Positions 29,606-59,809 of a stretch of DNA of 64,000 bases are shown here, one piece after another (the first letter of the stretch is position 1; each line of letters opens with the position of its first letter). The position numbers and the translations under genes were made by a program. Source of the stretch: Acidimicrobiaceae bacterium. GTDB taxonomy: Bacteria > Actinomycetota > Acidimicrobiia > Acidimicrobiales > Aldehydirespiratoraceae. The notes under the pieces were generated by a model. It made no database searches and was not told the DNA's origin. It saw only the letters and a program-made list of their open reading frames with translations. The stretch spans positions 1 to 64,000 of the forward strand of contig VXWX01000098.1 of assembly GCA_009835735.1 (NCBI GenBank). Reading direction: 5' to 3'.

Positions 29606-29636
29606 GATCCCCCTCCCCGTTATCCTCGGCTCCATC

Positions 29637-35503: not shown

Positions 35504-35505
35504 GC

Positions 35506-35546
35506 GGAACGCTGTTTCTCCCAAAGGAACACGGGGCTAGTGTTCC
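35506..35546. promoter_or_regulatory. Operator-like site A: GGAACGCTGTTTCTCCCAAAGGAACAC (35506-35532), plus extra dyad GGAACAC-N7-GTGTTCC to 35546
   Basis: 27-bp tripartite motif shared with four other sites; between divergent CoA-transferase and IclR genes. Confidence 0.75.
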
Positions 35547-35581
35547 TCATCGAAACCCTTGATGGCAACCAGTCGAGCGAT

Positions 35582-36397
35582 ATGGACACTCCCGTGAGCG
35601 AACCGTCGTCAGAGCCGGGCCAGGCCTCCGGCTCGGGCCGCAGCGTGGCCGCCATCGACAGGGCGGTGGAGGTGCTGTTCCTGTTCTCGCGGTCGTCGGG
35701 CACGCTGGGCGTGACCGAGATCTCGCGGGAGCTGGGCGTGTCCAAGGCGGTGGTGCACCGGATCCTGGCCTCGCTGTGCGAGCGCAGCCTGCTGATCGCT
35801 GATCCGCGCAGCCGCCGGTACGGGCTCGGGCCCGCGGTGATGGAGCTGGCCGCCGCCTTCCGCGACCAGCTCGATGTGCGGACCCTGGCCATCGACGAGA
35901 TGCGACGGCTCAGCGCGGAGACTGACGAGACCGCCACCCTGTCGGTCCGCTACGGCGACCGCCGGGTGTACGTCGACCAGATCACCCCGCCGCGTGAGGT
36001 GAAGATGACCGTGCCCATCGGGGGGTCGTTCCCGCTGCACGCCGGCGCGTCGTCCAAGGCGTTTCTGGCCTGGCTCACCGACGCGGCCGTCGACCGCTAC
36101 CTGGCCGACAACCCGCTGGACGCCCTCACCGACGCCACCGTCGTCTCGGTCGACGAGTTGCGAGCCGAACTGGAGGGCATCCGCGCCCAGGGCTTCGCCC
36201 TGTCCTTCGGTGAGCGTCAGCACGACGCCGGCTCGGTGGCCGCCCCGATCCTCGACCACAACGGTGAGCCGGTGGCCGTCATCAGCGTGTGCGGGCCGAT
36301 CTACCGGTTCCGCAGCAAGATCGGCCCCGCCTCCGCCGCCGTGGTGGAGGCCACCCGGGCGCTCTCGGCCAAGCTCGGCGCCCAGCCCCTTGCCTGA
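35582..36397 (+). CDS. IclR family transcriptional regulator
   Basis: SVAAIDRAVEVLFLFSRSSGTLGVTEISRELGVSKAVVHRILASLCERSLL; C-terminal effector domain LSFGERQHDAGSVAAPI. Confidence 0.93.
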   Translation: MDTPVSEPSSEPGQASGSGRSVAAIDRAVEVLFLFSRSSGTLGVTEISRELGVSKAVVHRILASLCERSLLIADPRSRRYGLGPAVMELAAAFRDQLDVRTLAIDEMRRLSAETDETATLSVRYGDRRVYVDQITPPREVKMTVPIGGSFPLHAGASSKAFLAWLTDAAVDRYLADNPLDALTDATVVSVDELRAELEGIRAQGFALSFGERQHDAGSVAAPILDHNGEPVAVISVCGPIYRFRSKIGPASAAVVEATRALSAKLGAQPLA

Positions 36398-38042
36398 CAC
36401 TCACGGGGCGCGGGACCACTTACGGGTGGCCGCAACGCAGTTCGCAGTCGGTACCGACGTCGACGCCAACCTGGGCACGTGCGTGCGGATGCTTGATGAG
36501 GCCGCGTCCGCCGGCGCCGAGTTGGTTGTGCTGCCCGAGTTCTGCAACCACCTGTCGGTGTACGACAGCGCCGAGCACTGCCGGGCGATGGCTGTGCCGC
36601 TGGACGGCGACTGGCTGGGAACGCTGGCCCGGCGGGCGGCCCACCATCGCATGTATGCGGCCCTGGCGGTGACCGTGCCCCGAGCCGGCGGCCGGGTGAC
36701 GGTCACCAGCGTGCTGATCGACCCCGACGGCCGGATCACCGCAACCGCCGACAAGCAGATGCTCATGGGCAACGAGCGGGCCTTTCTGAGCGCGGGGGAG
36801 CGGCCTGCCGCGGTGGCCGGCACCGTGTTCGGGCCGGTCGGGCTGTACGCGTGCATGGACGGCGTGACCTTCGAGACACCCCGGGCCCTGGCGGTGAGCG
36901 GCGCCCGGCTGCTGTGCAACAGCCTCAACTCCTTCGCCCGAGACGAGGCCAGCTTGCATGTTCCGGTGCGGGCCGCCGAGAACGGGGTATGGGTGGCGGC
37001 CGCCAACAAGGTCGGCTCGCTGCTGCCGGACGGGCGGGCCGCGGAGTTCGCCGAGGCGCTCGGAGTTCCCGCCGAAGCCCTCGAGGGCGCGGGCGAGAGC
37101 CAGATCGTCGACCCCGACGGCACGGTGGTGGCCAAGGCCCCGCCGACGGGCGAGGCCGTGGTGGTCGCCGACATCGACCTGTCGCACTGCCGCCCGCAGC
37201 GCCTGGCCGGCCGACGTCCCCTGATCTACGGCCCACTGGCCGGGCCGGACACGGCCATTCCGGCGACGGCGGATATCGCCAGCGTGACAGTTGCATGCGT
37301 GCCCGGAGCGCAACGGGACCCGGAGCTGATCTCAGACGCTTTGCAGCCCCCGGAGTTGATCGGCGAGGCCTTCAGCGCGGGCGCCCGGCTGGTAGTGCTG
37401 CCCGAGTTGACGCCTGTGCCCGACGGCATCCCCGCCGGGGTGCTGGTGGTCACCACCGCTGAGCGTGACGGGCAGCACGTGGGCCAGGTGTGGACGGCCG
37501 GAGGGCTGGTCCACGAGCAGCCCCAGATCCACCACTCCGACCGTTATCCCGACGTCACCCGGCTGGGGGAGGGGATCAGCCTCTACCCGACATCGTTCGG
37601 CGACATGGCCGTGATCGTGGGCGACGACCACCGCCACCCCGAGACCATCCGGCTGGCCGCCGTGGCCGGCGCCCATCTGGTGGCGGTGTGCTGGCAGCCA
37701 GAGCACCGCTGGGAGTGCGATCTGGGGTTGGTCGAGCGGGCCGCCGAGAACCGGGTCAGCCTGGCCGCCTGCGCGCCGCCGGGGCCGCTGGCGTCCACCA
37801 TGCTGCTCGACCCCCCGGCCGACTCGCTGTGGAACCCCCACCGCTCGAGCCCCTTCGACGGCACCATCAACAACCCGGTGTGCACGGTCGCCGGACCCGA
37901 TGACGGGCTGCTGGTCGGGACCTTGCATCCCGCCCGGGCCGCCAACCGCGAAGTGTCCAAGGACACCGACCTAGTCGGCGGCCGTTCCTTAGCCGCAGCC
38001 TCCGTGCTAGCCCAGCGGGACCCCGCGAATTGGCAGCAATAG
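36390..38042 (+). CDS. Carbon-nitrogen hydrolase (nitrilase superfamily), tandem domains
   Basis: First domain Glu (VVLPEFC), Lys (ADKQML), Cys (YACMDGVTFE); second nitrilase-like half lacks an obvious Cys. Start TTG 36390 or GTG 36426. Confidence 0.82.
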   Translation: MPDTHGARDHLRVAATQFAVGTDVDANLGTCVRMLDEAASAGAELVVLPEFCNHLSVYDSAEHCRAMAVPLDGDWLGTLARRAAHHRMYAALAVTVPRAGGRVTVTSVLIDPDGRITATADKQMLMGNERAFLSAGERPAAVAGTVFGPVGLYACMDGVTFETPRALAVSGARLLCNSLNSFARDEASLHVPVRAAENGVWVAAANKVGSLLPDGRAAEFAEALGVPAEALEGAGESQIVDPDGTVVAKAPPTGEAVVVADIDLSHCRPQRLAGRRPLIYGPLAGPDTAIPATADIASVTVACVPGAQRDPELISDALQPPELIGEAFSAGARLVVLPELTPVPDGIPAGVLVVTTAERDGQHVGQVWTAGGLVHEQPQIHHSDRYPDVTRLGEGISLYPTSFGDMAVIVGDDHRHPETIRLAAVAGAHLVAVCWQPEHRWECDLGLVERAAENRVSLAACAPPGPLASTMLLDPPADSLWNPHRSSPFDGTINNPVCTVAGPDDGLLVGTLHPARAANREVSKDTDLVGGRSLAAASVLAQRDPANWQQ

Positions 38043-38157: not shown

Positions 38158-38982
38158 CTACGGGGAGCGGTTGGGGACGCGGGCGAGTACCGAGCGGGCT
38201 TGGCGTATTACTGCGGCGTCGATGAACTTGCCGTCCAGCACGGCCACTCCCCGTCCCTCGGCGGTGGCCGCCTCCAGCGCGGCCATCACCGCCTCGGCAT
38301 GGGCGACCTCCTCCGCAGTCGGGGTGAAAGCCGCGTTCACCGCGGCCACCTGCTTGGGGTGGATCACCGACCGCCCGCCGAAGCCGAGGCGGCGCAGCGA
38401 CTCGCTGGTGGCCGCCAGGCCCTCGGCGTCGTCGAGGTCGGTGAACACCGGTCCGCACGGCGCGATCAGCCCGACGCCCACCGACGCCACCACCACGCGG
38501 GTGCGGATCGGCCACATCTCCAACCCGTCGGGCGACGGCATCATGCCCATGTCGGCGGCCAGGTCGGCCTCCCCCAGGGCCAGGCGCACCACCCCGGGGA
38601 CCGAGGCGACCTCGTACACCTTGAACACACCCTCGGCCGACTCGATGAGCGCCATGACCGGGCACCCGCCGAAGTCGGTCGCGCAAGCGTCGGGGTCGGC
38701 CTTGGGCACGACCACCCCGGCCAGGCCGATGCCGTCGGCCACCAGCGACCGGATCATGGCGGCGTCGGCGTCGAGGAGGTCGGGACGGTTGTTGACCCGC
38801 ACCCACACCGGCGCGCCGGGGTTGGCTCGCAGCCAGCTCGCCACCGCCTCCCGGGCGGCCGGCTTGGCCGCCTCGGCCACCGCGTCCTCCAGGTCGCAGA
38901 TGACTGCGTCGGCCCCCGAGGCCAGGGCCTTGTCGAAGCGCTCCGGGGTGTCGCCGGGAACGTACAGGGAGGTGCGGGTCAT
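38158..38982 (-). CDS. HpcH/CitE-type CoA-ester lyase
   Basis: RTSLYVPGDTPERFDKALASGADAVICDLEDAV; ALIESAEGV. Confidence 0.92.
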   Translation of the reverse strand: MTRTSLYVPGDTPERFDKALASGADAVICDLEDAVAEAAKPAAREAVASWLRANPGAPVWVRVNNRPDLLDADAAMIRSLVADGIGLAGVVVPKADPDACATDFGGCPVMALIESAEGVFKVYEVASVPGVVRLALGEADLAADMGMMPSPDGLEMWPIRTRVVVASVGVGLIAPCGPVFTDLDDAEGLAATSESLRRLGFGGRSVIHPKQVAAVNAAFTPTAEEVAHAEAVMAALEAATAEGRGVAVLDGKFIDAAVIRQARSVLARVPNRSP

Positions 38983-39056: not shown

Positions 39057-39083
39057 GAAACGCTGTTCCTGTCGACGGAACAC
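39057..39083. promoter_or_regulatory. Operator-like site B: GAAACGCTGTTCCTGTCGACGGAACAC
   Basis: Matches site A; between divergent CitE-like and RCCR-like genes. Confidence 0.75.
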
Positions 39084-39109: not shown

Positions 39110-39922
39110 ATGCGCGAGACGTTGAAGGGCGTCCAGGACATTTTCGATGATGCCGGTCCGACCGACGCCACCGCGACGTTCGACCGGCTGTGGTCGATCA
39201 CCGGCGAGATCATGGCCAAGCTCGAGGCCCGCTTCGAGCTGTCCCGCGATCCCAGCACCGACGACCTGGAGTCGTACCGGGGTGAGGCCGAGTACCCGGC
39301 GGGGCGGCTGGCGGCCTACGCCGGCCCGGAGATCGACTGGCTGATCCACTCGTGGATCGGCAACCCGCCGCTGGGGTTCACCAACATGCACGTCACCGCC
39401 TGGCTCGGTCCCCACATCGACGTGCCCCACCTCGGGATCGCCTGGGGCACGCTGCCCGACCTGTGGTTCTACATCGACTACAACCCCCGCTCGGACCTCA
39501 TGCTCGACACCGCCGCTCTCGACAAATACTGGGAGCCGCTCAACGAGGAGTTCCTTGAACTGCGAGCCGACCCGGGGCTGTCGACCTTCACCTCCCGGGA
39601 GCTCTACATCCGCCAGGCCCTCAGCCACACCGCGGTGTGCTTCACCACCCCCGGGATCACCCACGACGAGTCCCGTCTCGATCAGGTGCAACGTCTGGCC
39701 CACCGCCGGGTGGACCAGTGGCTGCGGTGGGTGGACGAGGCCGAGCCCGTGCCCCATGAGCGCCGCGAGCGCCTGGCGGCCGACGACCTGGCCCGGCGGC
39801 GCACCATCGCCGAGCGCGACCCCGCCAACGTCATGGGGGTGCGGTTCTTCGGGCCCGAGATGACCGACCGCCTGGTGCGGGCCCTGTGGGGCGGCGACCG
39901 GGTGCTGCCCCGACCGAGCTGA
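39110..39922 (+). CDS. Red chlorophyll catabolite reductase (RCCR)-like protein
   Basis: PEIDWLIHSWIGNPPLG; LWFYIDYNPRSDLMLDTAALDKYW; SRELYIRQALSHTAV; FFGPEMTDRLVRALWG resemble recalled RCCR/ACD2 segments (IDFVIGSWI; LVLILDLPHRKDLVLNPDYLKEYY; SPSLFVRSAFSPTAS; MFGEEVSSRVVHAI). Confidence 0.65.
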   Translation: MRETLKGVQDIFDDAGPTDATATFDRLWSITGEIMAKLEARFELSRDPSTDDLESYRGEAEYPAGRLAAYAGPEIDWLIHSWIGNPPLGFTNMHVTAWLGPHIDVPHLGIAWGTLPDLWFYIDYNPRSDLMLDTAALDKYWEPLNEEFLELRADPGLSTFTSRELYIRQALSHTAVCFTTPGITHDESRLDQVQRLAHRRVDQWLRWVDEAEPVPHERRERLAADDLARRRTIAERDPANVMGVRFFGPEMTDRLVRALWGGDRVLPRPS

Positions 39923-39943
39923 GAGCACACAGGGAGGCTTCCC

Positions 39944-41095
39944 ATGCTCATCAAGAACCACTGGTACGCCGTCGAGTTCGGCCAGCAGGTCGGCGACCGG
40001 CCCCTGCAGGTGAAGGTCCATGGCCACGACCTGGTGCTGTGGCGCAGCCCCAACGGCACGATCAACGCCCAGTCCGACCTGTGCGTGCACCGGGGCGGGT
40101 CGCTGGCGGGCGGTGAGGTGGTCGGCGACTGCGTGCGGTGCCCGTACCACGGCTGGCGCTACGACACCGAGGGGGCGTGCGTGGAGATCCCGGCCAACCG
40201 CCCCGACCTTCCCATCCCGCGCAAGGCCCGCATCGACACCTATCCCTGTGTCGAGCGCTACGGCTTCGTGTGGGTGTTCCTGGGCGACCTGCCCACCGAG
40301 CAGCGGCCGCCGCTGCCCGAGCTGTACGGCATGGAGCTGCACACTGAGGCCCGGGCCGAGGGGTTTCGGGCCGTGCAGGGCGAGTTCACCTGGAACGCCA
40401 ACTACGACCGGGTGCTGGAGAACGCCATCGACATCGCCCACACTCCGTTCGTGCACGCCGGGTCGTTCGGCAACCGTGACGAGCCGGAGATCCAGGACTT
40501 CGACCTTGAGGAGAGCCACGACAACGGCCACTTGACGTCGGTGAGCGCCACCGTCGACCTCAAGCCGCCCTTGCCGTCGGGGATCTGGCGGCTCATCGCC
40601 AAGAAGGAGCGCCCGCCGGTGCGCACCTCGACCGGCTTCTATCCGCCCAACATGTCCCTGCTGATCGTGCGCCTGCCGATGGGGGACATGCGCCTGTTCA
40701 CCGCGGCGGTGCCCCTCGACGAGCACACCACCGTGTCGAAGTTCTGCATGATGCGCTCGTTCTTCACCGGGGGCTGGGCCGACAAGGACTCCCACCGGCG
40801 CACCCTCAAGATCTTCCTGGAGGACCAGCCGACCGTGGAGGGTCAGCGGCCCGAGCTGCTGCCCTTCGACCTGTCGGCCGAGCTGCACGTCAAGTCCGAC
40901 TCCATCCAGCTGGCGTACCGGCGCTGGCGCCAGGAGCAGCTGGACAACGGCTTGGGATTAGCCGCCCCGACTGACGAGGAGTCCAGGCGGGCCGCGGCGG
41001 TGATCCCGTCGCCGGCCCGGGCCGCCGAGCCCGAGATGGCCAGCGCCTGGGTGTTCCCCACGGTCGGATCGACCGCCGGCGGAGCGGACGCATGA
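39944..41095 (+). CDS. Rieske non-haem iron oxygenase, pheophorbide a oxygenase/vanillate demethylase type
   Basis: Rieske motif CVHRGGSLAGGEVVGDCVRCPYHGW; iron-site segment NYDRVLENAIDIAHTPFVH. Confidence 0.9.
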   Translation: MLIKNHWYAVEFGQQVGDRPLQVKVHGHDLVLWRSPNGTINAQSDLCVHRGGSLAGGEVVGDCVRCPYHGWRYDTEGACVEIPANRPDLPIPRKARIDTYPCVERYGFVWVFLGDLPTEQRPPLPELYGMELHTEARAEGFRAVQGEFTWNANYDRVLENAIDIAHTPFVHAGSFGNRDEPEIQDFDLEESHDNGHLTSVSATVDLKPPLPSGIWRLIAKKERPPVRTSTGFYPPNMSLLIVRLPMGDMRLFTAAVPLDEHTTVSKFCMMRSFFTGGWADKDSHRRTLKIFLEDQPTVEGQRPELLPFDLSAELHVKSDSIQLAYRRWRQEQLDNGLGLAAPTDEESRRAAAVIPSPARAAEPEMASAWVFPTVGSTAGGADA

Positions 41096-41811
41096 GCCTG
41101 TCGGCTGAGTTGTGCCTGGGCACGGTGGAGGCCATCGCGGCCCGGCTGGAGCTCGAGGAGATCGAGTCCGTGCCGCTGACCTCGGCCATGGACGGATCGC
41201 CGGTGGGCGTGCACCGGGTGCTGGCCCGTGACGGGGTGGCCGCCCTGGTGTACGTGTCCATGACCGTCGAGGCCTTCGGGCTCGACAGCCACATGTGCTT
41301 CGCGTTCACCCCGCCGGACAGCGCAGTGCCCCACTTCACGGTGGACTCGGTGCTGGCCGGGCCCCACTACGCCTTCCACCTAGACCTCATGCCCCGGGTC
41401 GACCCGGGAGCCAACCTGGCCTACGTCGACCACTGCTTCACACCCCTCAGCGACGCCCACAGCCAGGCCGGCGAGATAGACGGGCTGACCCCCGCCCACC
41501 TGTCGCGGCGTCAATGGCAGCTCATGTCGGCGTGGATGCTGGCCCATCGGGCCGACGAGGACGGCTTCCGGGCGGTGTTCGGCACGGTGGCCGCCTACCG
41601 CGACCACTGGCTCAGCCTGGCGGTCGACGGCGTGCCCGACGTTGTGCTGGACGGCGCCGCCGGCGAGCAGCTTGCCGAGCGTGACGCCCGCCACCGGGCC
41701 GCCCTGTTCAACCCCGACGTAGACCCGGTGTGGGCCCAGGTGGACCGCCTGCTCGGCCCGGACGTGAGTGCCCGCGTCCGCGACAGCCTCACGACCGCGG
41801 GCCGCACCTAG
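41092..41811 (+). CDS. Second RCCR/bilin-reductase-like protein
   Basis: HFTVDSVLAGPHYAFHLDLMPRVDPGANLAYVDHCFTPLSDA; C-terminal RHRAALFNPDVDPVWAQVDRLLGPDVSARVRDSL parallels the 39110 protein; 4-nt overlap with Rieske gene. Confidence 0.5.
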   Translation: MSLSAELCLGTVEAIAARLELEEIESVPLTSAMDGSPVGVHRVLARDGVAALVYVSMTVEAFGLDSHMCFAFTPPDSAVPHFTVDSVLAGPHYAFHLDLMPRVDPGANLAYVDHCFTPLSDAHSQAGEIDGLTPAHLSRRQWQLMSAWMLAHRADEDGFRAVFGTVAAYRDHWLSLAVDGVPDVVLDGAAGEQLAERDARHRAALFNPDVDPVWAQVDRLLGPDVSARVRDSLTTAGRT

Positions 41812-41823
41812 AACGGAGACACC

Positions 41824-42765
41824 ATGAGCGAGACCGAAGCCTCCGAGTGGCAGCAGCGCATCACCGGTGAGTGGTACGGCCTGCCGTCGGTGTTCGACGC
41901 CGACGGGAGCCACACCGGGTTCAACAAGGTCAGCCGGGCCAGCGTCTTCGCCGACGGCAAGGTCACCTACTGGATGCAGTGCAACTTCATGAACACCGGT
42001 CCGCTGCGCAACCGTTTCGAGATCAAGGACTTCGAGTTCGGGGTGGACGACCAGGGCGACAACCGGATCTATCAGGGCCCCGACTTCTACGGCGCCGGCC
42101 ACCCCTACGGCTCGCTGGTGGACTCGCACTACTACGCGCCGGGCTGGCGGGCCGACCTCAACACCATGAACCAGATCCTGGCCGACGGGGTGACGCAGGT
42201 GTACTCGTCGCTGCTGTACGAGGGTCCCACCATCTTCTCGGTGTTCAACGGGGTGTACCTCAACGCCCACGACTACGACACCAACCCCGAGACCAAGTCT
42301 CGCATCGACGCCCACCTCGAGAACGAGCGGGAGATGGCCGCCTGGCCCCACACCCTGCCCGATCGCAAGGGCGGCCAGTGGGCCGGCTCCTGCGAGGTGT
42401 TCGGGGCCGACCAGCAGCACCGGGGCAGCGTCGATGTCCGCATCCGCCACGACCCGATCGACCTGGTGCGGGCCACCCAGCAGTGGGAGATGTCCGGGGA
42501 GGTCGACCGGTCGTTCACCTATGTGCGCACCCGGTCCAACGGCAACCGCCACACCTACGACGGCCCCGACCTGTGGGGCAACGCCCTGGCTTACGGCCGG
42601 GCCCTGTACACCACCCAGCACCACGCCCGCGAGGCTTTCAAGGTCAAGGGCCGCGAGTTCATCATCGACCGCGACTACACCCTGGCCGCGGTCTGGAAGC
42701 TCTATGACGGCGACCGCATGACCGACGTCGTCTTCGGTGCGCTCACCTGGTCGCCGGACGGCTAG
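41824..42765 (+). CDS. Calycin-like protein, two repeated domains (RIYQGPDFYG / HTYDGPDLWG)
   Basis: GEWYGLPSVFDADGSHTGF and GGQWAGSCEVFGADQQHRGS repeats with beta-rich pattern. Confidence 0.5.
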   Translation: MSETEASEWQQRITGEWYGLPSVFDADGSHTGFNKVSRASVFADGKVTYWMQCNFMNTGPLRNRFEIKDFEFGVDDQGDNRIYQGPDFYGAGHPYGSLVDSHYYAPGWRADLNTMNQILADGVTQVYSSLLYEGPTIFSVFNGVYLNAHDYDTNPETKSRIDAHLENEREMAAWPHTLPDRKGGQWAGSCEVFGADQQHRGSVDVRIRHDPIDLVRATQQWEMSGEVDRSFTYVRTRSNGNRHTYDGPDLWGNALAYGRALYTTQHHAREAFKVKGREFIIDRDYTLAAVWKLYDGDRMTDVVFGALTWSPDG

Positions 42766-42769
42766 AGCG

Positions 42770-43444
42770 TCAGCCCACGGCCACCGACACGACGCGGCCG
42801 TGCTCGCTGGCGTCCTCGACCAGTTCGAAGCCGGAGGCGCCGATCGGATCGCGCATGGCCCACAGCCGGCGGCGGCGCAGCGGCGACGGCTGACCGAGCG
42901 CCGCCAGCAGGGGTCCGACCGTCCGGTGCAGCGGCCAGCGGTCGTCCACCTCGGGGACCGGCGCCGACAGGTCGAGGCGAGGCTCGACCCCGGACGACTC
43001 GGGAACGGCCACCCCGACGATGTCGGCCACCGACCGGCCGGCCAGCGAGAAGAACCCGCCGGTTAGCTGGCGGTCGGGGGCGACCAGGACGCTGTAGGAC
43101 TCGAACTCGTATCCGAACCGGGGCCAGATGCCCCGCCCGGTCATGGTCCCGGGCTGCCACTCGGTCGCGGCGCCCATCACGTCGGGGCCCAGGTACCGGC
43201 GCCGGGGTCCGTCCACTTGCAGCTCGAAGATCCAGTCGCCGGCGAAGGCCGCCATGGGGTGGCCGTCCAGGTCCGGCGACGGCTCGCAGTGCTGGACCAC
43301 CCGGACCCTGCCCCTGTCGGCCGGTTCGACGCGGCGGCGCTGGGCGACCGAGCCCCGGTACGCGCCGTCGGGGTCGTAGACGTGCTCGGTGACCAGCCAG
43401 GCGCCGGAGAACGGATCGCGGCCCGTGCCGCTGCTCTCACTCAT
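42770..43444 (-). CDS. Calycin-like protein (RRYLGPDVMG)
   Basis: FSGAWLVTEHVYDPDGAYRGSVAQRRRVE; shares the RxYxGPxxxG motif with its neighbours. Confidence 0.5.
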   Translation of the reverse strand: MSESSGTGRDPFSGAWLVTEHVYDPDGAYRGSVAQRRRVEPADRGRVRVVQHCEPSPDLDGHPMAAFAGDWIFELQVDGPRRRYLGPDVMGAATEWQPGTMTGRGIWPRFGYEFESYSVLVAPDRQLTGGFFSLAGRSVADIVGVAVPESSGVEPRLDLSAPVPEVDDRWPLHRTVGPLLAALGQPSPLRRRRLWAMRDPIGASGFELVEDASEHGRVVSVAVG

Positions 43445-44367
43445 GACGGGTCGAAGGATAGGGTGCCGTACACCGCTCCCAGCCGCTCCTCACCCCGGTA
43501 CCAGATGTGCAGGACGGCTTTGGTCGAACCGTCCAGCGAAGCGACCTCCCGGCGCCACACCCGGCATCCGGCCGTGTCGTTGTGGAAGTGCCCGCTCAGG
43601 CCCCGGCCGCCGCTGAGGGATGCGCTGCCGGCGAAATCGCCGGTCGGGGTCCATGCCGTCCATCCGTCGGACTCCAGCGTGAACGAGGCATCGGGGGCGA
43701 AGTCGAGCCCCGACAACTCCACCGTCAGCGCCTCGCTCGCCTGCCCGGCGGGGCCATCGCCGGTGGCGGCGATTGTCTCAACGAAGTCGACGGTCCCGGA
43801 GGGTTCAAGGTCGCGGTCGAGGCGTTGCAGCCGGCCGGACCATCGGCCCGGTCGCAGCAGCAACAGTCGACCCCGTCCCGCCGACGGGTCGTCGCTCACC
43901 TCCGCGGGGTCTATGGGCTCCACCGCGGGTGGCGGCTCCTGCGAGGCCCCGAGTTGGCGCCGATACTCGCCCACCACCGTCCAGCGGAGCTGGTCGCCCC
44001 GGCTCAGCAGCGCCAGCGACAGTTGGTGGTCGCCGTCGGGCAGCACCATCAGGAAGAACCGCTGGGAGAGGCCCAGGCTGGGCCAGTAGTTGCGGGCCGC
44101 AATCAGACCGTCCCCCAGCACTTCGGCGAAGCCGAGGTTCAGAGGGCCCTCGTAGGTCCGGTGCGAGCCGTGGTCGGCGATGGTGTACATCCCCGACAGC
44201 TGGAACGGCCCCTCGAACGTCACCTCCACCGTGATCAGGCCAGCAGGGTCTTCGGCCTGCACCGTGCGGGTGTCGCGGCCCATCCCGGCGAAGCGGCCGC
44301 TGCCGTCGTAAACCTCGGCCGATCCGACCCACTCGCCGAGCCCCTGCGAGAAGGAGCCTCCGCTCAC
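43441..44367 (-). CDS. Calycin-like protein, two domains (RTYEGPLNLG)
   Basis: GEWVGSAEVYDGSGRFAGM and GRWSGRLQRLDRDLEPSG repeats. Confidence 0.5.
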   Translation of the reverse strand: MSGGSFSQGLGEWVGSAEVYDGSGRFAGMGRDTRTVQAEDPAGLITVEVTFEGPFQLSGMYTIADHGSHRTYEGPLNLGFAEVLGDGLIAARNYWPSLGLSQRFFLMVLPDGDHQLSLALLSRGDQLRWTVVGEYRRQLGASQEPPPAVEPIDPAEVSDDPSAGRGRLLLLRPGRWSGRLQRLDRDLEPSGTVDFVETIAATGDGPAGQASEALTVELSGLDFAPDASFTLESDGWTAWTPTGDFAGSASLSGGRGLSGHFHNDTAGCRVWRREVASLDGSTKAVLHIWYRGEERLGAVYGTLSFDPS

Positions 44368-45182
44368 GCCCGTATCAGCCGCACGGTCTGGGTGTCCACG
44401 GGGGTGGCCGCCAGCACCGGGCCGAGGTCGGTGCCTGGCGGGTGGGGGGCCAGGTACCGGCCCTCGGTGGCCACTTCCAGCCCGTCGGTGGCGAACGGGT
44501 AGGGATCGACCTCGTACACCGCGCCGGGACGCTCGGTCACCGAGATGGTCACGTCTTCGCCCACCGCCCGGGGCACGTTGTGGAACTCGGCGGTGCCCCG
44601 CTCGCCCTCGGGCACCAAGTGGAAGTACAGCGACAGCGTGTCGAAGAACTGGAGCTGCTTGTAGGCGTTGAAGATGAAGTCCTCGTCGGCGAGGTCGGCG
44701 TCGTCGCCGGCCAGGTCCTGCTTGAGCCGGCGCTGGCGGCTCTCCTCGGCCTCCAGCATGGCGTCCACATCGGGGCGCATGTCGTCGGGGATCAGATCGA
44801 GGAAGATCTTGTCGCTGAGCCCGTAGCGGCCGCAGTACAGCCCGTAGGTGTGCATCGACGAGATGACGCCACTGAAGGGATGGTGCGCCTCGTTGAACTG
44901 CGGAGAGGAGGCCGAGGTGGCCACGATCTGGGCCAGCGGGGTGGCCGTCAGGTTGTAGGGGAGCCCGGTGTCGGGGTTCTGGGGGGCGCGGGCGTCGAGG
45001 TCGGCCCAGCCCGCGTCGTGGTTGTCGACGATGTACTGCATGGGCTCGGCCGGTTCCAGGCCGGCGAAGGTGTCGTTGCCGAAGTCGGCGGCCAGCGAGC
45101 CCGCGAAGGCGGTGTGCTGGTGCATGGCGATCACGAAATGGGGGCCGTCGGCGGCCCCGCCGGCGGGCGGTTGCACGATCAT
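44364..45182 (-). CDS. DUF3891-like family protein
   Basis: AMHQHTAFAGSLAADFGN; YIVDNHDAGWADLDARAP; MHTYGLYCGRYGLSD; start trimmed to ATG at 45182. Confidence 0.65.
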   Translation of the reverse strand: MIVQPPAGGAADGPHFVIAMHQHTAFAGSLAADFGNDTFAGLEPAEPMQYIVDNHDAGWADLDARAPQNPDTGLPYNLTATPLAQIVATSASSPQFNEAHHPFSGVISSMHTYGLYCGRYGLSDKIFLDLIPDDMRPDVDAMLEAEESRQRRLKQDLAGDDADLADEDFIFNAYKQLQFFDTLSLYFHLVPEGERGTAEFHNVPRAVGEDVTISVTERPGAVYEVDPYPFATDGLEVATEGRYLAPHPPGTDLGPVLAATPVDTQTVRLIRA

Positions 45183-45634
45183 GGCCGCTGCACCCGGGCG
45201 AAGTCCTGGATCTGGAACAGATTGGTCTTTCCGTCGCGCACCTTGTGGGTGATGATCCGGCGGGTGTCGGGATCCAGGAAGTAGTGGTTGTTGTAGACGA
45301 TGTTGGCGCTGACCCGGCTGTCGATCGTGAACACGTAGTTGTAGGGGGTCAGCTCGGTGCCTTCGAGGCTGAGCTGGTCGCTCTCGGCGAAGCAGCGCCT
45401 GCCGTCCACGCCGATCGGCGTGTCGAACACCGTCTCGCCGACGCCGTAGAGGTTCTCGAAGTGCTCGTGGAGGTGCCAGGTCTGGTCGTCGAGCCAGTAC
45501 ACGTCCATGTGCACTGCGCTGGACTCCAGGAAGTCGCCGCCGGGGGTGAAGCTCTTGCACAGCCCCTCCCAGCGGCCCATGAAGCACTGGTATGGCCGGG
45601 GCGAGGGCTCGCCGTAGTTCTTCGGGTGGCTCAT
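45179..45634 (-). CDS. Lipocalin/DUF3598-like small protein
   Basis: FMGRWEGLCKSFTPGGDFLESSAVHMDVYWLDDQTWHLHEHFENL. Confidence 0.5.
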   Translation of the reverse strand: MSHPKNYGEPSPRPYQCFMGRWEGLCKSFTPGGDFLESSAVHMDVYWLDDQTWHLHEHFENLYGVGETVFDTPIGVDGRRCFAESDQLSLEGTELTPYNYVFTIDSRVSANIVYNNHYFLDPDTRRIITHKVRDGKTNLFQIQDFARVQRP

Positions 45635-45666
45635 GACCCGAATGGTAGAACGTAGGATCCAGTTGT

Positions 45667-45693
45667 GAAACTGCGTTCCTCTCAGCGGAACCA
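45667..45693. promoter_or_regulatory. Operator-like site C: GAAACTGCGTTCCTCTCAGCGGAACCA
   Basis: Tripartite motif in a divergent intergenic region. Confidence 0.72.
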
Positions 45694-45723
45694 TCATGGC
45701 CCAGAGGCCGAGCGGAACGGCCG

Positions 45724-46722
45724 ATGATTGTTCGAGGCTGGCACTTCTCGTTTGATGCCGGCGGCGATGCCGCGCTGGCCACGCTCTACTACCCGGCCGA
45801 CGGCGGCCGGCTGGAGGAGGCCCGCCTGACCGGGCAGGTTCCCGCCGCGGCGGGGGAGCCGTGGCCGCTGGTGATCATGATGCCCGGCATCAACGTGGCC
45901 CCCGACAGCTACCGCTGGCTTGCCCACCGGCTCGTGCCGACCGGGGTGTGCGTCGTGACCTACGCCGCCATCGGGTCGCTGGGGCCCGCCGGCCAAGGCA
46001 TCACCCCCGGCCTCGACCTCGACGCGCTCAGCCCCGCCAACCTCGGCTCACGTCCGGTGGCTACCGCGCTCGGGCCGCTTCTCGACCGCCTGGCCGGCCT
46101 CTCCGAGGCCGACGGCGCGCCCGCGGCCGGGATGCTCGACCTCAGCCGGGTTGTGGTCGGCGGGCATTCGGCCGGGGGAACCGTCGCGCTGCACAGCAGC
46201 GACCCCGGCTGGGTGCCGGGCGTGCGGGCCGTGTTCGCCTACGGCGCCCACACAATGACGGCCACCGCTCTGGGACGCGGCGAGGCCGCGGTGATGGCCA
46301 TCCCGGCCAAGGTGCCGGTGATGCTGCTAGCGGGCACCGACGACGGCGTCATCGCAGCCAGCCGCGACCGGTACCACCGCGATGACGCGACGGACGACGG
46401 CGATGGGGACGACGGCGGTGATGGGGACGATGTCCATGACCCGGTCCGGCGCACGTTCGAGGAGGCCATTGGGCACAGGCGGGGGGACTCGTGGCTGGTC
46501 GAGTTGGCCGGCGCCGGACACTTCGCTGCCTGCCATCCGGTGGACACCACCAGCGGACGCGCGTTTCTGGAGCCCGACCCGGTTGGCGCCGACCCGGCTG
46601 TGCGCGCCCTGCTGGGAGACTTGGTCGCCGTATTCATAGCTGCCAGCCTCGGGGAACCGGCCGGCATCAGCCTGGAACAACTGGTTGAGCACGATCTGGT
46701 CGCGCACTGGTACCGGCGGTAG
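45724..46722 (+). CDS. Alpha/beta hydrolase, chlorophyllase/dienelactone hydrolase-like
   Basis: PLVIMMPGINVAPDSYRWLAHRLVPTGVCVVTY; nucleophile elbow VVVGGHSAGGTVAL; Asp-rich insert DDATDDGDGDDGGDGDD. Confidence 0.65.
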   Translation: MIVRGWHFSFDAGGDAALATLYYPADGGRLEEARLTGQVPAAAGEPWPLVIMMPGINVAPDSYRWLAHRLVPTGVCVVTYAAIGSLGPAGQGITPGLDLDALSPANLGSRPVATALGPLLDRLAGLSEADGAPAAGMLDLSRVVVGGHSAGGTVALHSSDPGWVPGVRAVFAYGAHTMTATALGRGEAAVMAIPAKVPVMLLAGTDDGVIAASRDRYHRDDATDDGDGDDGGDGDDVHDPVRRTFEEAIGHRRGDSWLVELAGAGHFAACHPVDTTSGRAFLEPDPVGADPAVRALLGDLVAVFIAASLGEPAGISLEQLVEHDLVAHWYRR

Positions 46723-46732
46723 GGAGATCGAC

Positions 46733-47539
46733 ATGGGAAGGCGCATCGTCATCACGGGCAGCACCCGGGGGATCGGCAACGGCTTGGCCCGGGAGTTCCT
46801 GAAGCGGCGGTGCCGGGTGGCCATCAGCGGTCGGTCTGCCGATCAGGTCGAGGCGGTGGTGGCCGAGCTGGGCCAGTACTACGGAGAGTCGAGGGTGTGC
46901 GGCGCGGCCTGCGACATCACCGATCCCGGCCAGCTCCAGGCGCTGTGGGACGCTACGGCCGAAGCCTTCGGCGGGGTCGACGTGTGGGTCAACAACGCGG
47001 GCGTCAGCATCGAGCGCCTACCGCTGTGGGAGCAGCGCGACCGCGACCTGGCCACCCTGGTCGACACCAACCTGACCGGGGCGCTGCTGGCCAGCAAGAC
47101 CGCCATCGCCAACATGCTTCAGCAGGGCCACGGGCAGATCTGGAACACCGAGGGCTTCGGGTCCGACGGGGCCACCCAGCCCGGGATGGCCGCCTACGGC
47201 TCCACCAAGCGGGCCGTGCGCTACCTCCAGCGGGCCCTGCGCAAGGACACCGCCGGCACGCGGGTGCAGGTGTGCACCGTGTCGCCCGGCATCGTGGTGA
47301 CCGAGCTGCTCACCGGCGACTACGACATCACGTCGGAACAGTTCGAGAAGGCCAAGCGGATCTTCAACATCCTGGCCGACGAGGTCCACACCGTCACCCC
47401 GTGGCTGGCCGACCACATGCTGGCCGCCGACAAGTCGGGGGCGAGGGTGGTTTGGCTGACCCGCCGCAAGGCGTTCGCCCGGTTCATGTCCGCCCCGTTC
47501 CGCACCCGCGACCTGTTCGCCCACCTCGACACGGAGTGA
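46733..47539 (+). CDS. SDR family oxidoreductase, chlorophyll(ide) b reductase (NYC1/NOL)-like
   Basis: IVITGSTRGIGNGLAREFLKRRCRVAISGRS; DVWVNNAG; IWNTEGFGSDGATQPGMAAYGSTKRAVRYLQ; VCTVSPGIVVTELL. Confidence 0.7.
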   Translation: MGRRIVITGSTRGIGNGLAREFLKRRCRVAISGRSADQVEAVVAELGQYYGESRVCGAACDITDPGQLQALWDATAEAFGGVDVWVNNAGVSIERLPLWEQRDRDLATLVDTNLTGALLASKTAIANMLQQGHGQIWNTEGFGSDGATQPGMAAYGSTKRAVRYLQRALRKDTAGTRVQVCTVSPGIVVTELLTGDYDITSEQFEKAKRIFNILADEVHTVTPWLADHMLAADKSGARVVWLTRRKAFARFMSAPFRTRDLFAHLDTE

Positions 47540-47546
47540 CTGCGCT

Positions 47547-50264
47547 CTAGCCGCCGAGATAGCTCCGCACTACTGCAGGGTCCGTCTGGACGGCGGCGGG
47601 GGAGCCTTCGGCGATGACCCGGCCCACCTCCAGGGCGATCATGCGGTCGCAGACGGAGGCCAGCAGCGGCATGTCGTGCTCGATAACCACCAGGGTGATT
47701 CCGTAGGCCTCGCGGATCCGCACGATCACCTCGCCCAGGGCCTCGGTCTCGGCTTGGGCGATACCGGCCGACGGCTCGTCCATCAGCAGCAGCCGGGGCC
47801 GCAGCGCCACGTTGGCGGCCAGCTCGACGAGGCGCCGGGTTCCGGTGGACAGCAGGCCGACCGGCTGGTCGCCCACCGCGGCCAGACCGAAGGCGGTCAG
47901 GGTGTCGCCGGCTTGGTCCTCGATGGTCCGCTCGGCCCGCGACCCGCCTAGCACGAAGCGACCGCCCGCGGCCGACCGGCACGCCAGGAACACGATCTCG
48001 CGCGGGGTCATGGTGGGGAACAGCGATGCGTTCTGGAACGAGCGCACCAGCCCGCGGCGGCTGCGGGCCTCGGGCGACAGGCGGGTGATGTCGGTGCCGT
48101 CGAAGACGACCGACCCTGCGTGCGGGCGCAGATAGCCGCTCACCACCTCGAACACGGTGGTCTTGCCGGCGCCGTTGGGTCCGATCAGCCCCAGCGTCTC
48201 GCCCGCCTCCACGCTGAATGACACGTCGTCGACCGCCTTCAGGTCGCCGAAGCGCCGTGACAGTCCCCGCACTTCGAGCACCGTGCCGCCCGCACCGGCA
48301 GCGTTGCCGGGCACGGCTGCTGGCGCTGCAGCGGGAGAGGCCGCAGTATCGGGCCGGGGGGCCTCGGCGGTGTCCGGGTCGATGCCGTGTAACCGGGCTA
48401 TCTGATCGATCAGGTTGCGCCGGGTGCTGTCCAGCAGGCCGTGGAAGCCCCGGGGCTGCTCCAGGATCAGGATCAGCCACGCCGCGTTGAGCCCGGCCAG
48501 CGCCGACAGCTCCAGATCGAAGAACTCGCGGATGCCGATCAGGTAGGCGGCGCCCAGCAGCGGGCCGGTCAGCTCCGACAGACCGCCGATGACCGCGATG
48601 GCGACCACGTTGATGCTGTCGCTGGGGGTGAAGATGCTGCGGGTGACGAAGGTGTTGTTCATGGCCAGCACCACACCGCCGGCACCCGCCACGAACCCGG
48701 CGAAGGCGTAGGCGGTCACCAGCAGGCGCCACGGGGCCACCTGGAGCACCCGGGACGCGGCCTCGTTGTCGCGCACCGCTACCAGCGTGCGCCCGAACGA
48801 CGACCGCCGGAGCGTGGCCGCCACCGCCAGCACCACCACGAACACGGCCAAAGCCACGTAGTAGAAGCCCCGCGAGTTGGTCACCTCGATGCCGAGCACG
48901 CTCACGGGGCGCGACGAGAGACCGGAGCCGAAGGCCCAGTCCTGGCGCAGCAGCCAGCTGAAGGTGGCCAGCGCGAAGGCCAGGGTGGCCACGGCCAGCA
49001 GCAGGCCCTGCATCCGCAGTGCCGGCAGCCCCACCGCGGCCGACGCGGCCGCGCCGGTGACGCCGCCGCACAGCAGGCCCAGCGCCAGGCTGCCGGTGTC
49101 GACGGCCACCCTCACGCCCACCACCGCGCCGATGGCCGCGAAGGCCACCTGCCCCAGCGACAGTTGCCCGGCGAGGCCGGTAAGGAAGCTGACCGAGATA
49201 CCGATGGTGGCGAAGGCGATCACGGTGGACAGCAGGAAGGCGGACCGGTTGGTGATCCACACCGAGGCCAGCGCGGCCGCCACCGCGCCTGCGCCGCCCA
49301 GCACCCAGCCCAGGTGCTGGATGAGCCACACGCCCCGGTAGGCGTCGGGCAGGCGCCGGCTGGGCGTCAGGCTGGCCCAGCGCTCGGCCTGGTCCCGGCT
49401 CGCGCCCACCCGAAGGGCCACGCCTGCCAGGATGATCAGGAACAGGGCCACCTCGAACCAGCCGGTGGAGTCGGGGTTGGAGGCCAACACCTGCTCGACG
49501 ATGCCGATGCCCAGTCCGGCGGCGAAGGCCACCGGGAAGTTGGCGAAACGGGCCAGGGCGGCCACCGCCAGGCCGCGCACGATGAAGTCGGGGCCGAGGG
49601 CGTCGGGCGTAACCGTCGACTGGTTGGGGAGTATGAGCATGGCCGCGAAGGCCGACAGGGCGCCGGCCAGAGCCCACGACAGCGCGGCCATATGCCGGGG
49701 ATCGACCCCGGCCAGGGTGGCCGCGTCGGCGTTGGCGGCCGCGCCCCGCACCGCCAGCCCGTACTTGCTGCGCTGGAGGAACAGGTACAGCCCGCCGACC
49801 ACCACCGGCGACAGCCACAGCAGGGCGGTCGCCGACTGCGACACGAACACGGTCAGCTCGAACTGGGGGAACCCCGGCGGCTGGGGGAAGCTCCCGCCGC
49901 CGAGCCCGCCCTTGGCGAAAGACAGCGCCAGCAGCAGCAGCGCCTGGCCGGCGCCGAGCGTGGCCACCATCGACAGCACCTTGGGGGCGCCGGCCAGCTT
50001 GCTGGCCAGCATGGCCTCGATGCCGGCCGCCAGCAGGGCGGCCGCGGCCAGGGCGCCGGCGAAGCCCAGCCAGTAGGGCACGCCGTAGTCGTTGACCACC
50101 ACCGACATCGCCGACGCGGCCAGCAGGCCGGTGGCGCCGTGGGCGAAGTTGATGAAGCCGCTGGACCGGTAGGCCAGCACCAGGCCGATGCCCAGAAGCG
50201 CGTAGCCGATCCCGAAGATCGAGCCCAGCAGCAGCAGGGGGCCGGATACGTCGAAGCCGCCCAT
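47547..50264 (-). CDS. Branched-chain amino acid-type ABC transporter, LivH-LivM-LivG fusion
   Basis: LivH-like permease, LivM-like permease (LSLGQVAFAAIGAVVGV) and ATPase GPNGAGKTTVFEVVSGYLRP in one 905-aa ORF. Confidence 0.88.
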   Translation of the reverse strand: MGGFDVSGPLLLLGSIFGIGYALLGIGLVLAYRSSGFINFAHGATGLLAASAMSVVVNDYGVPYWLGFAGALAAAALLAAGIEAMLASKLAGAPKVLSMVATLGAGQALLLLALSFAKGGLGGGSFPQPPGFPQFELTVFVSQSATALLWLSPVVVGGLYLFLQRSKYGLAVRGAAANADAATLAGVDPRHMAALSWALAGALSAFAAMLILPNQSTVTPDALGPDFIVRGLAVAALARFANFPVAFAAGLGIGIVEQVLASNPDSTGWFEVALFLIILAGVALRVGASRDQAERWASLTPSRRLPDAYRGVWLIQHLGWVLGGAGAVAAALASVWITNRSAFLLSTVIAFATIGISVSFLTGLAGQLSLGQVAFAAIGAVVGVRVAVDTGSLALGLLCGGVTGAAASAAVGLPALRMQGLLLAVATLAFALATFSWLLRQDWAFGSGLSSRPVSVLGIEVTNSRGFYYVALAVFVVVLAVAATLRRSSFGRTLVAVRDNEAASRVLQVAPWRLLVTAYAFAGFVAGAGGVVLAMNNTFVTRSIFTPSDSINVVAIAVIGGLSELTGPLLGAAYLIGIREFFDLELSALAGLNAAWLILILEQPRGFHGLLDSTRRNLIDQIARLHGIDPDTAEAPRPDTAASPAAAPAAVPGNAAGAGGTVLEVRGLSRRFGDLKAVDDVSFSVEAGETLGLIGPNGAGKTTVFEVVSGYLRPHAGSVVFDGTDITRLSPEARSRRGLVRSFQNASLFPTMTPREIVFLACRSAAGGRFVLGGSRAERTIEDQAGDTLTAFGLAAVGDQPVGLLSTGTRRLVELAANVALRPRLLLMDEPSAGIAQAETEALGEVIVRIREAYGITLVVIEHDMPLLASVCDRMIALEVGRVIAEGSPAAVQTDPAVVRSYLGG

Positions 50265-50275
50265 CCGCGCCCGTC

Positions 50276-52273
50276 CTATGCCTCTCGCCGGTCGATGTGG
50301 AGGGCGTGGGCCAGGCCCTCGAGGTAGGCGGCCCGCAGCAGGTCGGGACGGGCCCGCAACTCCTCAGCCGGGCCGGAGTAGCCGATCTCGCCCTTCTCCA
50401 TGACGTAGGCGTGGTCGGCCACCGACAGGGACACGTTCACCGACTGCTCCACCAGCAGTACGGCCGCGCCCTGATCGGCGATGCGGCGGATCACCGGCAA
50501 CAGGTCGGCGATGACGGTCGGTGCCAGGCCCAGCGAGAACTCGTCGATCAGCAGCAGGCGGGGAGGAGTCACGACGGCCTTGGCCAGCCCCAGCATCTGC
50601 TTCTCGCCGCCCGACAGGGTGGCGGCCCGCTGGCGCGAGCGGTCGGCCAGGCGGGGGAACAGCTCGTAGGCCTCGGCGATGCTCCGGGCCCGCTGGGCGC
50701 GGTCAAGGCCGTGGCCGAACAGGGTCAGGTTCTCGGCAACGGTGAGGGGTCCGACCACCGCGTCGGTCTCGACGACCTGGTGCAGCCCCATGCCCACTCT
50801 CCAGGTGGGCCGGGTCTTGGTGATGTCGAGACCCGCGTAGACGATGCGTCCCCCGATGGTCGGCTCCAGCCCCGAGATGGCCCGCAGCAGGGTGGTCTTG
50901 CCGGCTCCGTTGGTGCCCATCAGCGCCACGACCGCGCCCTCGTGCACGGTCAGGTCCACGCCGAACAGCACCTGCACCGATCCGTAGGACACCGACAGCT
51001 GCTCCACCGACAGCAGCGGCGGCCCCGACGCGACCGGGTACACCCGGCGGGGAACGGTGGTGGCCTTGGACACGGCCACCACCGTCTCGGCGTCAGGGGC
51101 CGGGGCCGCGAACCGGCGAACCGCCCATCCGACCACCACCAGGGGCAGGGCCAGCACGGCGAGCTTCAACTGGTCCGGCCAGCTCCCGGCAATCCAGGCG
51201 TTGATCGAGGCGGCCGCCAAGGCGCCGGCACCGGCCCACCGCACCTGGCGGGCGGCCACCGCCCGCCGCAGCTCGGGAGCGATACCCGGGAACACGGCCG
51301 CGTCCAGCCCGGCCAGGGCCAGGGCGATGGCGCCGCCGGCCACGAACCAGCAGGCCACCAGCCCGATGTAGGTGAAAGACACCGACCCCAGCAGCATCAG
51401 CACGCCCGCCACCAGCAGTTGGGTTCCGACCGCGTCGGCCCGGCGGCCGCCGGTGAGCCGGTGGAGCCGGTGGTACCAGGGACCGAAGGCGCTGATCAGG
51501 GCGGCCGCGGCGGCTCCGGCGGCCAGCACCGCTGCGTTCTGGACCGGGCTGCGCTGCCATTCGCCCAGCAGCAGCGACTGGGCCGGGTCGGCGCCGCCGA
51601 TGGCGGCCGCGCCCACCGCCAGAGCGGCGCCGTAGGACCGGCGGGCCCACGGCAAATCGGTCCGGGCGACGGTGGGCTGCACCTCGAGGTCGTTGTCGTG
51701 GGCCAGAGCGTGGCGAGCGATAAGGACCGCGCTCACCAGCGCCAGCGCGGCAGCGGCCCACAGCACGGTGCTGTAGGACAGGGGGGTCAGCACGCGGGCC
51801 GCCAGCGGCCAGCACGCCCCGGCGGCCACCGCGGCCCAGTACCACGACGCCGTACGGAACCGGTCGGCCTGGCGGGCGTCGGTGGCCAGCAGGATGCGGT
51901 GGAGCACCAGCCCGGGCGCCGCCCCCGCGGCCAGCATGATCCCGCCGGCAGTGAACATGGCGATGCCGGTCGTGCGAGCCATCACGGCGAGCCCGGCCGC
52001 GGCCAGCAGCCCGGCCAGGGCCAGCATGATCCCGGCCGGCAGCACGCTGCGCAGCCGGGGCACCATCAGTGCGGCCACTATCGCGGCCGCGCCGATCAGG
52101 GCGGCCTCGCCCATCACCGCGCCGACCACGCCGAGGCGCTCGGCGATCTCCTCCCGGCGGAACAGCAGCACCGGCAGCGCCGAGGCCAGCGCGGCCGCCT
52201 GGCCGGCGACGGCGATCAGCAGCCGGGGATTGCCCGGCCGGCCCCGCTGCTCGCCGTCCTCCGCCTCGCTCAT
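50276..52273 (-). CDS. MFS-like membrane domain fused to LivF-type ABC ATPase
   Basis: About 380 aa multi-TM N-half; ATPase GTNGAGKTTLLRAISGLEP, LSGGEKQML, LLLIDEFSLGLAP. Confidence 0.82.
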   Translation of the reverse strand: MSEAEDGEQRGRPGNPRLLIAVAGQAAALASALPVLLFRREEIAERLGVVGAVMGEAALIGAAAIVAALMVPRLRSVLPAGIMLALAGLLAAAGLAVMARTTGIAMFTAGGIMLAAGAAPGLVLHRILLATDARQADRFRTASWYWAAVAAGACWPLAARVLTPLSYSTVLWAAAALALVSAVLIARHALAHDNDLEVQPTVARTDLPWARRSYGAALAVGAAAIGGADPAQSLLLGEWQRSPVQNAAVLAAGAAAAALISAFGPWYHRLHRLTGGRRADAVGTQLLVAGVLMLLGSVSFTYIGLVACWFVAGGAIALALAGLDAAVFPGIAPELRRAVAARQVRWAGAGALAAASINAWIAGSWPDQLKLAVLALPLVVVGWAVRRFAAPAPDAETVVAVSKATTVPRRVYPVASGPPLLSVEQLSVSYGSVQVLFGVDLTVHEGAVVALMGTNGAGKTTLLRAISGLEPTIGGRIVYAGLDITKTRPTWRVGMGLHQVVETDAVVGPLTVAENLTLFGHGLDRAQRARSIAEAYELFPRLADRSRQRAATLSGGEKQMLGLAKAVVTPPRLLLIDEFSLGLAPTVIADLLPVIRRIADQGAAVLLVEQSVNVSLSVADHAYVMEKGEIGYSGPAEELRARPDLLRAAYLEGLAHALHIDRREA

Positions 52274-52298
52274 CGTGGTGTGGATCGGCCTCTGGCGT

Positions 52299-56849: not shown

Positions 56850-56850
56850 A

Positions 56851-59782: not shown

Positions 59783-59809
59783 GAACGACCCTCCCGCTCC
59801 CATTCCAAC

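Follow-up and report, generated by a model that had tools for sequence, protein, structure and literature searches.

Does a bacterial counterpart exist of the plant PAO/phyllobilin pathway, in which chlorophyll is broken down? The question is raised by a block of genes at positions 39110-47539 of a 64,000-nt stretch of DNA (the window) from contig VXWX01000098.1, assembly GCA_009835735.1, of an Acidimicrobiaceae bacterium. A first-pass annotation had read this block as a bacterial version of the plant pathway. The core of that reading stood, namely a tetrapyrrole breakdown locus centred on an RCCR-family protein, together with a Rieske oxygenase and a second reductase of the fold shared by RCCR and the ferredoxin-dependent bilin reductases (FDBRs); the one-to-one mapping of the genes onto plant enzymes stood only in part. 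The genes listed in the block are real, but the locus extends further, and maleate-type genes on either side, with the same operator and the same co-occurrence among genomes, had been missed. Based on the sequence, we can predict with moderate confidence that the locus is a substrate-induced tetrapyrrole catabolic regulon under the control of an IclR-type regulator at GTTCC-N7-GGAAC.

Two RCCR/FDBR-fold reductases and a Rieske oxygenase

The block consists of the following genes, referred to below by their first coordinate.

39110-39922 (+), RCC-reductase family protein (Pfam PF06405)
39944-41095 (+), Rieske non-heme iron oxygenase, VanA_C type, candidate macrocycle opener (PF00355 and PF19112)
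41092-41811 (+), second RCCR/FDBR-fold reductase (profile search, AlphaFold and Foldseek)
41824-42765 (+), double lipocalin (DUF3598-like), candidate pigment-binding carrier (predicted structure)
42770-43444 (-), conserved protein without Pfam match, calycin-like in the first-pass annotation (conservation)
43441-44367 (-), conserved protein, probably related to 41824 (match of the 41824 profile in other genomes)
44364-45182 (-), DUF3891 protein (PF13030, 111 bits)
45179-45634 (-), small conserved protein (conservation)
45724-46722 (+), alpha/beta hydrolase, candidate side-chain esterase (GHSAGG motif, catalytic triad)
46733-47539 (+), classical short-chain dehydrogenase/reductase (SDR), candidate side-chain carbonyl reductase (Pfam, solved structures)

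The 39110 protein is a member of the RCC_reductase family PF06405, with a score of 54.6 bits (E=1.2e-14) against the gathering score of 24.9 bits, while its match to Fe_bilin_red is weak (16.2 bits). In a search of solved structures with a profile of 16 relatives, Arabidopsis RCCR was found at the top (3.5e-19) and the bilin reductases at 1.6e-6 or worse, in agreement with the initial description of this gene as RCCR-like. It is the sole PF06405 match in the source genome and one of 3 in a phylum-level sample of 397 genomes. As in Arabidopsis RCCR (Protein Data Bank 2zxk and 3aga), the position of Asp291 is kept, its counterpart D237 being invariant in 16 of 16 sequences; overall identity to the plant enzyme is low, and Leu171 stands at the position of Phe218. 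The RCCR residue numbers were assigned by setting the offset in the printed alignment so that the residue of the F218V mutant fits. We take Asp291 and Glu154 to be the key residues of RCCR.

The 41092 protein matched no Pfam family, including Fe_bilin_red and RCC_reductase, the best family member reaching only E=0.03; the profile search gave HY2 at E=4e-4 and plant RCCR at E=1.6e-3. Its AlphaFold model (pLDDT 92.4) was matched by Foldseek first to RCCR (E=7e-11) and then to PcyA, PebA, PebS, PebB and HY2, almost all of the 45 matches at E<=0.001 being RCCR or FDBR structures. The fold proposed for this second reductase was thus confirmed, and both 39110 and 41092 fall inside the RCCR/FDBR group. 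Two acidic residues do not vary among 15 sequences: D85, in the column of Glu154 and Asp105, and D211, part of the C-terminal Asp-Pro. Their columns presumably correspond to the catalytic acids Asp105 and Asp206 of PebS.

The 39944 protein is a Rieske oxygenase, as annotated at first, with Pfam matches to PF00355 and to the VanA_C domain PF19112. The Cys and His residues of the cluster, D163/H166/H171 and D294 are invariant in 14 members, which makes up the full set of metal ligands; among proteins of solved structure, it is closest to SxtDIOX, SxtT and NdmA. Heme oxygenase (PF01126) was detected in none of 12 genomes carrying the block, with controls positive. The route by this type of heme oxygenase was therefore rejected, and a Rieske ring opener would be needed if the substrate is cyclic.

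Among the remaining proteins of the block, 41824 was modelled as a double lipocalin similar to DUF3598 (2o62) and BFA1, with the CpeS lyase further down the match list. With one confident model out of five, this assignment is weaker than that of the 41092 fold. The 41824 profile weakly matches the place of the 43441 orthologue in two other genomes, G579 and G618 (1e-10 to 1e-9; G-numbers denote sampled genomes), suggesting that the two proteins are probably related. The region 44364-45782, previously listed as one unit, is made up of two genes, one for the DUF3891 protein (44364-45182) and one for the small protein ending at about 45634. The hydrolase 45724 has an intact Ser-His-Asp site, as GHSAGG as well as S149, D207 and H266 are invariant. 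It could not be assigned to chlorophyllase: PF12740 gave 16 bits against the required 28, and no family profile was matched above its Pfam cut-off. For the SDR 46733, likened to chlorophyll b reductase (NYC1/NOL) in the first-pass annotation, generic classical SDRs were the sole matches in searches of solved structures and NCBIfam, and its counterpart in a gammaproteobacterial block is 61% identical.

Conservation of the block and its catabolic neighbours

Each gene of the block was compared by tblastn with 20 loci retrieved by an RCCR query (L-numbers denote the compared loci). About 20 other genomes carry the ORFs (open reading frames) with the frame intact, at 50-99% identity, and judged from this conservation they are real genes. 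Metagenome-assembled genomes of Acidimicrobiia, closed chromosomes among them, carry the same gene order at mostly 65-99% identity, and in L024 and L025, from two more distant members of the same taxonomic order (about 50-58% identity), the RCCR, Rieske, 41092 and 41824 genes are aligned head to tail. In the gammaproteobacterial loci L022 and L023 (36-61%), the genes for RCCR, hydrolase, 41824, 41092, Rieske and SDR are found in another order, indicating that the gene set is conserved and not just one inherited order. The RCCR protein, the Rieske oxygenase, the second reductase and the double lipocalin are thus one unit in Acidimicrobiia, rearranged in Gammaproteobacteria. In an order-level sample of 248 genomes, RCCR was found in 10 and both 41824 and 41092 in 11, these being the same genomes; the eleventh, G605, is an assembly of 640 contigs, in which 41824 and 41092 lie on one contig near its start.

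Three further observations were made on the compared loci. In L022 (17426-19047), a second RCCR homologue adjoins a second SDR homologue, forming a paralogous pair within the same gammaproteobacterium. A luciferase-like monooxygenase gene adjoins RCCR in L021 (8469-10819; Nonomuraea corallina MCN248, a cultured strain) and in L024 (8491-10351). The locus L018 (NZAO01000054.1), titled Rhodospirillaceae, carries the acidimicrobial locus in the same order at 57-77% identity; this contig is probably mis-binned.

On both sides of the block, genes of catabolic families are located as follows.

27753-28412 (-), isochorismatase-family amidohydrolase, maleamate-amidase type fold (PF00857, 119 bits)
28409-29845 (-), class III CoA-transferase (PF02515, 421 bits)
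30587-32047 (-), cyclic amidohydrolase, hydantoinase/dihydropyrimidinase type, candidate imide-ring opener (PF01979)
32044-33495 (-), MmgE/PrpD-type hydratase (PF03972/PF19305)
33492-34316 (-), PF04199 'cyclase' metal hydrolase (Pfam)
34313-35524 (-), class III CoA-transferase, CaiB type (PF02515, 399 bits)
35540-36397 (+), IclR-family regulator, candidate operator reader (PF01614/PF09339)
36426-38042 (+), carbon-nitrogen hydrolase, amidase (PF00795, 154 bits)
38158-38982 (-), HpcH/HpaI lyase, citramalyl/malyl-CoA lyase type (PF03328)
47547-53750 (-), branched-chain-amino-acid-type ATP-binding cassette (ABC) importer, including the binding protein (ORFs; binding protein PF13458)
54085-55338 (-), acyl-CoA-dehydrogenase-fold flavin enzyme, closest to class D monooxygenases
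57791-59032 (-), FAD monooxygenase (PF01494, 178 bits)
59036-59803 (-), maleate isomerase/arylmalonate decarboxylase superfamily protein (PF17645)

The maleate isomerase family protein scored 59 bits against a PF17645 threshold of 25.9, with the putative maleate isomerase 2xed as its closest solved relative. At a threshold of E<1e-70, this gene was detected in each of the 11 block genomes and in 0 of 237 others. The PF04199 cyclase was found in 11 of 11 block genomes and in 6 of the 237 others (p=3e-15 by genome and 5e-9 by genus), and in G295, G540 and G605 it is located on another contig or far from the block. Some genomes carry several maleate-isomerase-like genes: three are found on contigs C35, C23 and C17 of G295 (about 50% identical to that of the window) and two each in G414 and G546.

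Many of the flanking genes have homologues beside the block elsewhere. In L024, genes for CoA transferase, cyclase, PrpD, hydantoinase A/B, isochorismatase, luciferase-like monooxygenase, RCCR, Rieske, 41092 and 41824 are aligned in one direction; the PrpD homologue in this operon is 56% identical to that of the window and the isochorismatase homologue is weaker. In L025, a homologue with 64% identity to the CoA-transferase 28409 lies close to the RCCR block; the CoA-transferase 34313 adjoins cyclase and PrpD throughout the loci compared, and homologues of the carbon-nitrogen hydrolase lie near the block in L022, L024, L025 and L072. The flavin enzyme 54085 has homologues of 57% and 49% identity in the gammaproteobacterial blocks. 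The FAD monooxygenase is paired with maleate isomerase in L023 and L025, and the vicinity of the block holds this pair, or its isomerase, in L025 as well as in L023 and L072, both gammaproteobacterial. As to the nearest solved structures, the cyclic amidohydrolase is closest to D-hydantoinase 1nfg (E=6e-40) and the HpcH/HpaI protein to acyl-CoA lyase beta chains, followed by malyl-CoA lyase.

Oxidative cleavage of tetrapyrroles yields alkyl-maleimides such as hematinic acid and methyl-ethyl-maleimide. The flanking families would fit a chemistry leading from imide through amide and maleate to CoA-ester, which would be suited to such alkyl-maleimides.

In the importer region, the genes at 47547-52273 look fused: one ORF of 905 aa appears to combine permease domains with an ATPase, and a second ABC ATPase appears to be fused to a multi-spanning membrane domain. 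Outside this set, the window carries a squalene-hopene cyclase gene (24326-27040), which adjoins DUF2855 and methyltransferase genes and encodes an additional N-terminal segment similar to squalene epoxidase/FAD enzymes, beta-propeller and repeat-rich proteins (55401-57678) and an FG-GAP repeat protein (62205-63509).

The GTTCC-N7-GGAAC operator

The first-pass annotation had also pointed to shared operator-like sites, and the palindrome GTTCC-N7-GGAAC indeed occurs four times in the window against an expectation of 0.06.

39065-39081, operator GTTCCTGTCGACGGAAC, upstream of the RCCR operon
45675-45691, operator GTTCCTCTCAGCGGAAC, in the divergent promoter region between the 45179 and 45724 genes
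57806-57822, operator GTTCCGGTCAACGGAAC, at the end of the FAD monooxygenase gene
59818-59834, operator GTTCCGCTGGTGGGAAC, between maleate isomerase and molybdenum hydroxylase (59851-62151)

The molybdenum hydroxylase gene, of the xanthine dehydrogenase type, is transcribed divergently from the maleate isomerase gene across the last site. Arms of GTTCC are unexpected in the GC-rich DNA of the window, where the arms of the other frequent palindromes of the same size consist entirely or almost entirely of G and C. In nearly all acidimicrobial loci, conservation of the intergenic sequence upstream of RCCR centres on GTTCC-N7-GGAAC, and the core is also present at RCCR in the distant L021, 40 bp before the gene, and in L025. 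It was further detected in L024, at the divergent promoter shared by the IclR and CoA-transferase genes, and in G295 (L073) and G605 (L076), where the IclR/CoA-transferase modules are unlinked to the block. Since the operator core is common to both halves of the locus and recurs in distant and unlinked loci, the RCCR block and the maleate-type genes probably form one regulon. An IclR gene adjoins the operator sites in L024, L073 and L076, suggesting that an IclR-type regulator may read the operator.

Two further sites, at 3660 and 10746 of L079 (contig C58 of G000), lie between divergent genes and ahead of genes of one-carbon folate metabolism, so that the core alone is not exclusive to the locus and was rejected as a locus-unique signal. 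The genes following these sites encode formate-THF ligase, FolD and an MTHFR-like protein. The longer form TGCGTTCC-N7-GGAAC is found in exact form solely in the window. A GAAAC-N4 extension at fixed spacing was tried and gave no better model for the window sites.

Proposed pathway and its alternatives

From the gene families and their arrangement, we infer the following reactions and their order. A chlorophyll- or pheophorbide-like pigment, imported or scavenged, would have its side chains trimmed by the SDR and the alpha/beta hydrolase, and ring opening would fall to the Rieske oxygenase instead of heme oxygenase or PAO. The linear product would then be reduced by the RCCR-family protein and the second RCCR-fold enzyme with electrons from ferredoxin, the lipocalin-like proteins holding the hydrophobic intermediates. 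Flavin monooxygenases may cut the methine bridges to give alkyl-maleimides, which would be opened and de-amidated by the hydantoinase-type hydrolase and the amidases, and the resulting alkyl-maleates could be converted into central metabolites by maleate isomerase, CoA transferases, PrpD and the HpcH lyase. Chlorophyll derivatives or phycobilins are possible substrates.

Several observations weigh against this pathway. The Rieske protein lies outside the PaO family: none of 14 members of its group matches PF08417, the catalytic domain being VanA_C instead. No ferredoxin gene was identified in the block. The position of RCCR Glu154 is occupied by Ala111 in the 39110 protein. The SGR Mg-dechelatase (PF12638) was found in none of 8 genomes, in a search run without a positive control. 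In Nonomuraea (L021), RCCR is present without Rieske or second reductase genes within 10 kb. The CoA-transferase-cyclase-PrpD module also occurs without RCCR, so its substrates must be wider, and the co-occurrence p-values overstate independence because the genomes are related.

If the substrate were already open, as are cyanobacterial phycobilins or biliverdin, the two RCCR/FDBR-fold enzymes would both act as its reductases and the Rieske enzyme on a side chain or dipyrrole. This linear-bilin catabolism, for which heme oxygenase is not required, agrees with the membership of both reductases in the bilin-reductase superfamily, with the acidic pair of true FDBRs kept in 41092 and with the CpeS-like similarity of 41824. 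We regard it nevertheless as unlikely, as 39110 matches RCCR far better than FDBR, and an SDR and an esterase accompany the block in two phyla.

The second alternative, that the RCCR fold has been turned to a different substrate, an N-heterocycle other than a tetrapyrrole or some other small molecule, in an unrelated pathway ending in maleate or alkylmaleate, appears more doubtful still. Maleate-type genes are of a general kind, small molecules are the usual substrates of VanA_C Rieske enzymes and Glu154 of RCCR is not retained, all in line with such a change. In contrast, one unit contains two separate proteins from a superfamily for which no chemistry other than that of tetrapyrroles is known, together with lipocalin-like proteins; 39110 is above the RCCR family cut-off; and even coproporphyrinogen oxidase, a distant structural relative, acts on tetrapyrroles (PMC10151467). 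Synthesis of a tetrapyrrole-derived product (pigment, luciferin-like compound or signalling bilin) beside an independent catabolic island of maleate genes would suit the mostly biosynthetic FDBRs and calycins that could bind pigment, but it is very improbable in view of the operator shared with the maleate-isomerase genes, the IclR regulator and the co-occurrence with degradation genes even when unlinked.

Compared with the plant pathway (NYC1/NOL, SGR, PPH or chlorophyllase, PAO and RCCR), the tetrapyrrole catabolic locus proposed here likewise combines an RCCR-family reductase with a Rieske oxygenase, an SDR and an alpha/beta hydrolase. It differs in its VanA_C Rieske protein (the plant enzyme being of the PaO type), in its two RCCR-fold reductases and lipocalin-like proteins, in its linkage to maleate-type catabolism, in its organisation as a bacterial operon, and in SGR, which was not found here in the search noted above. 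The degradation of maleimide, maleamate and maleate, as in nicotinate-type systems (NicF, NicE, hydantoinases), has the families of hydantoinase-type hydrolase, isochorismatase-type amidase and maleate isomerase in common with the locus, whereas here these are linked to CoA transferases, PrpD, HpcH lyase and RCCR-fold reductases. The pre-PcyA FDBR clusters described by Rockwell et al. 2023 (PMC10151467) are likewise bilin-reductase-superfamily genes in heterotrophic bacteria; they carry heme oxygenase, V4R and globin genes, whereas in the present locus the genes for a Rieske oxygenase and a second reductase are accompanied by maleate-type genes and heme oxygenase is missing, and bacterial RCCR relatives are mentioned in that work only as an outgroup. 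SGR homologues, of which the physiological role is unknown, are another case of a plant chlorophyll-breakdown family in non-photosynthetic bacteria (PMC8531759).

In the open-access literature we found no description of an RCCR-Rieske operon, of a bacterial RCCR operon or of RCCR in Acidimicrobiia, no account of maleimide plus tetrapyrrole degradation genes matching the locus, and no described bacterial gene set for chlorophyll breakdown. The conserved unit, the linked maleate-type genes, the shared operator and the failure to find heme oxygenase are what the present analysis adds.

We put forward, as a tentative proposal, that the locus encodes a complete mineralising pathway for chlorophyll-type tetrapyrroles in non-phototrophic marine Actinobacteria and Gammaproteobacteria, with non-PAO Rieske opening, two RCCR-fold reductions and an alkyl-maleimide/maleate lower route under one IclR-type operator, and that it hints at a descent of plant RCCR from such bacterial enzymes. 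A conserved and co-regulated gene set in non-photosynthetic, largely marine bacteria may represent a route for the consumption of chlorophyll-like pigments, the turnover of chlorophyll being put at about a billion tons a year in a passage of PMC12930011. If the regulon degrades chlorophyll, its genes would serve as markers for bacterial consumption of chlorophyll or bilins in the sea and in sponges, pigment would be linked to maleate-type carbon flow, and the finding would bear on the origin of plant RCCR and its partner genes, as has been argued before for SGR.

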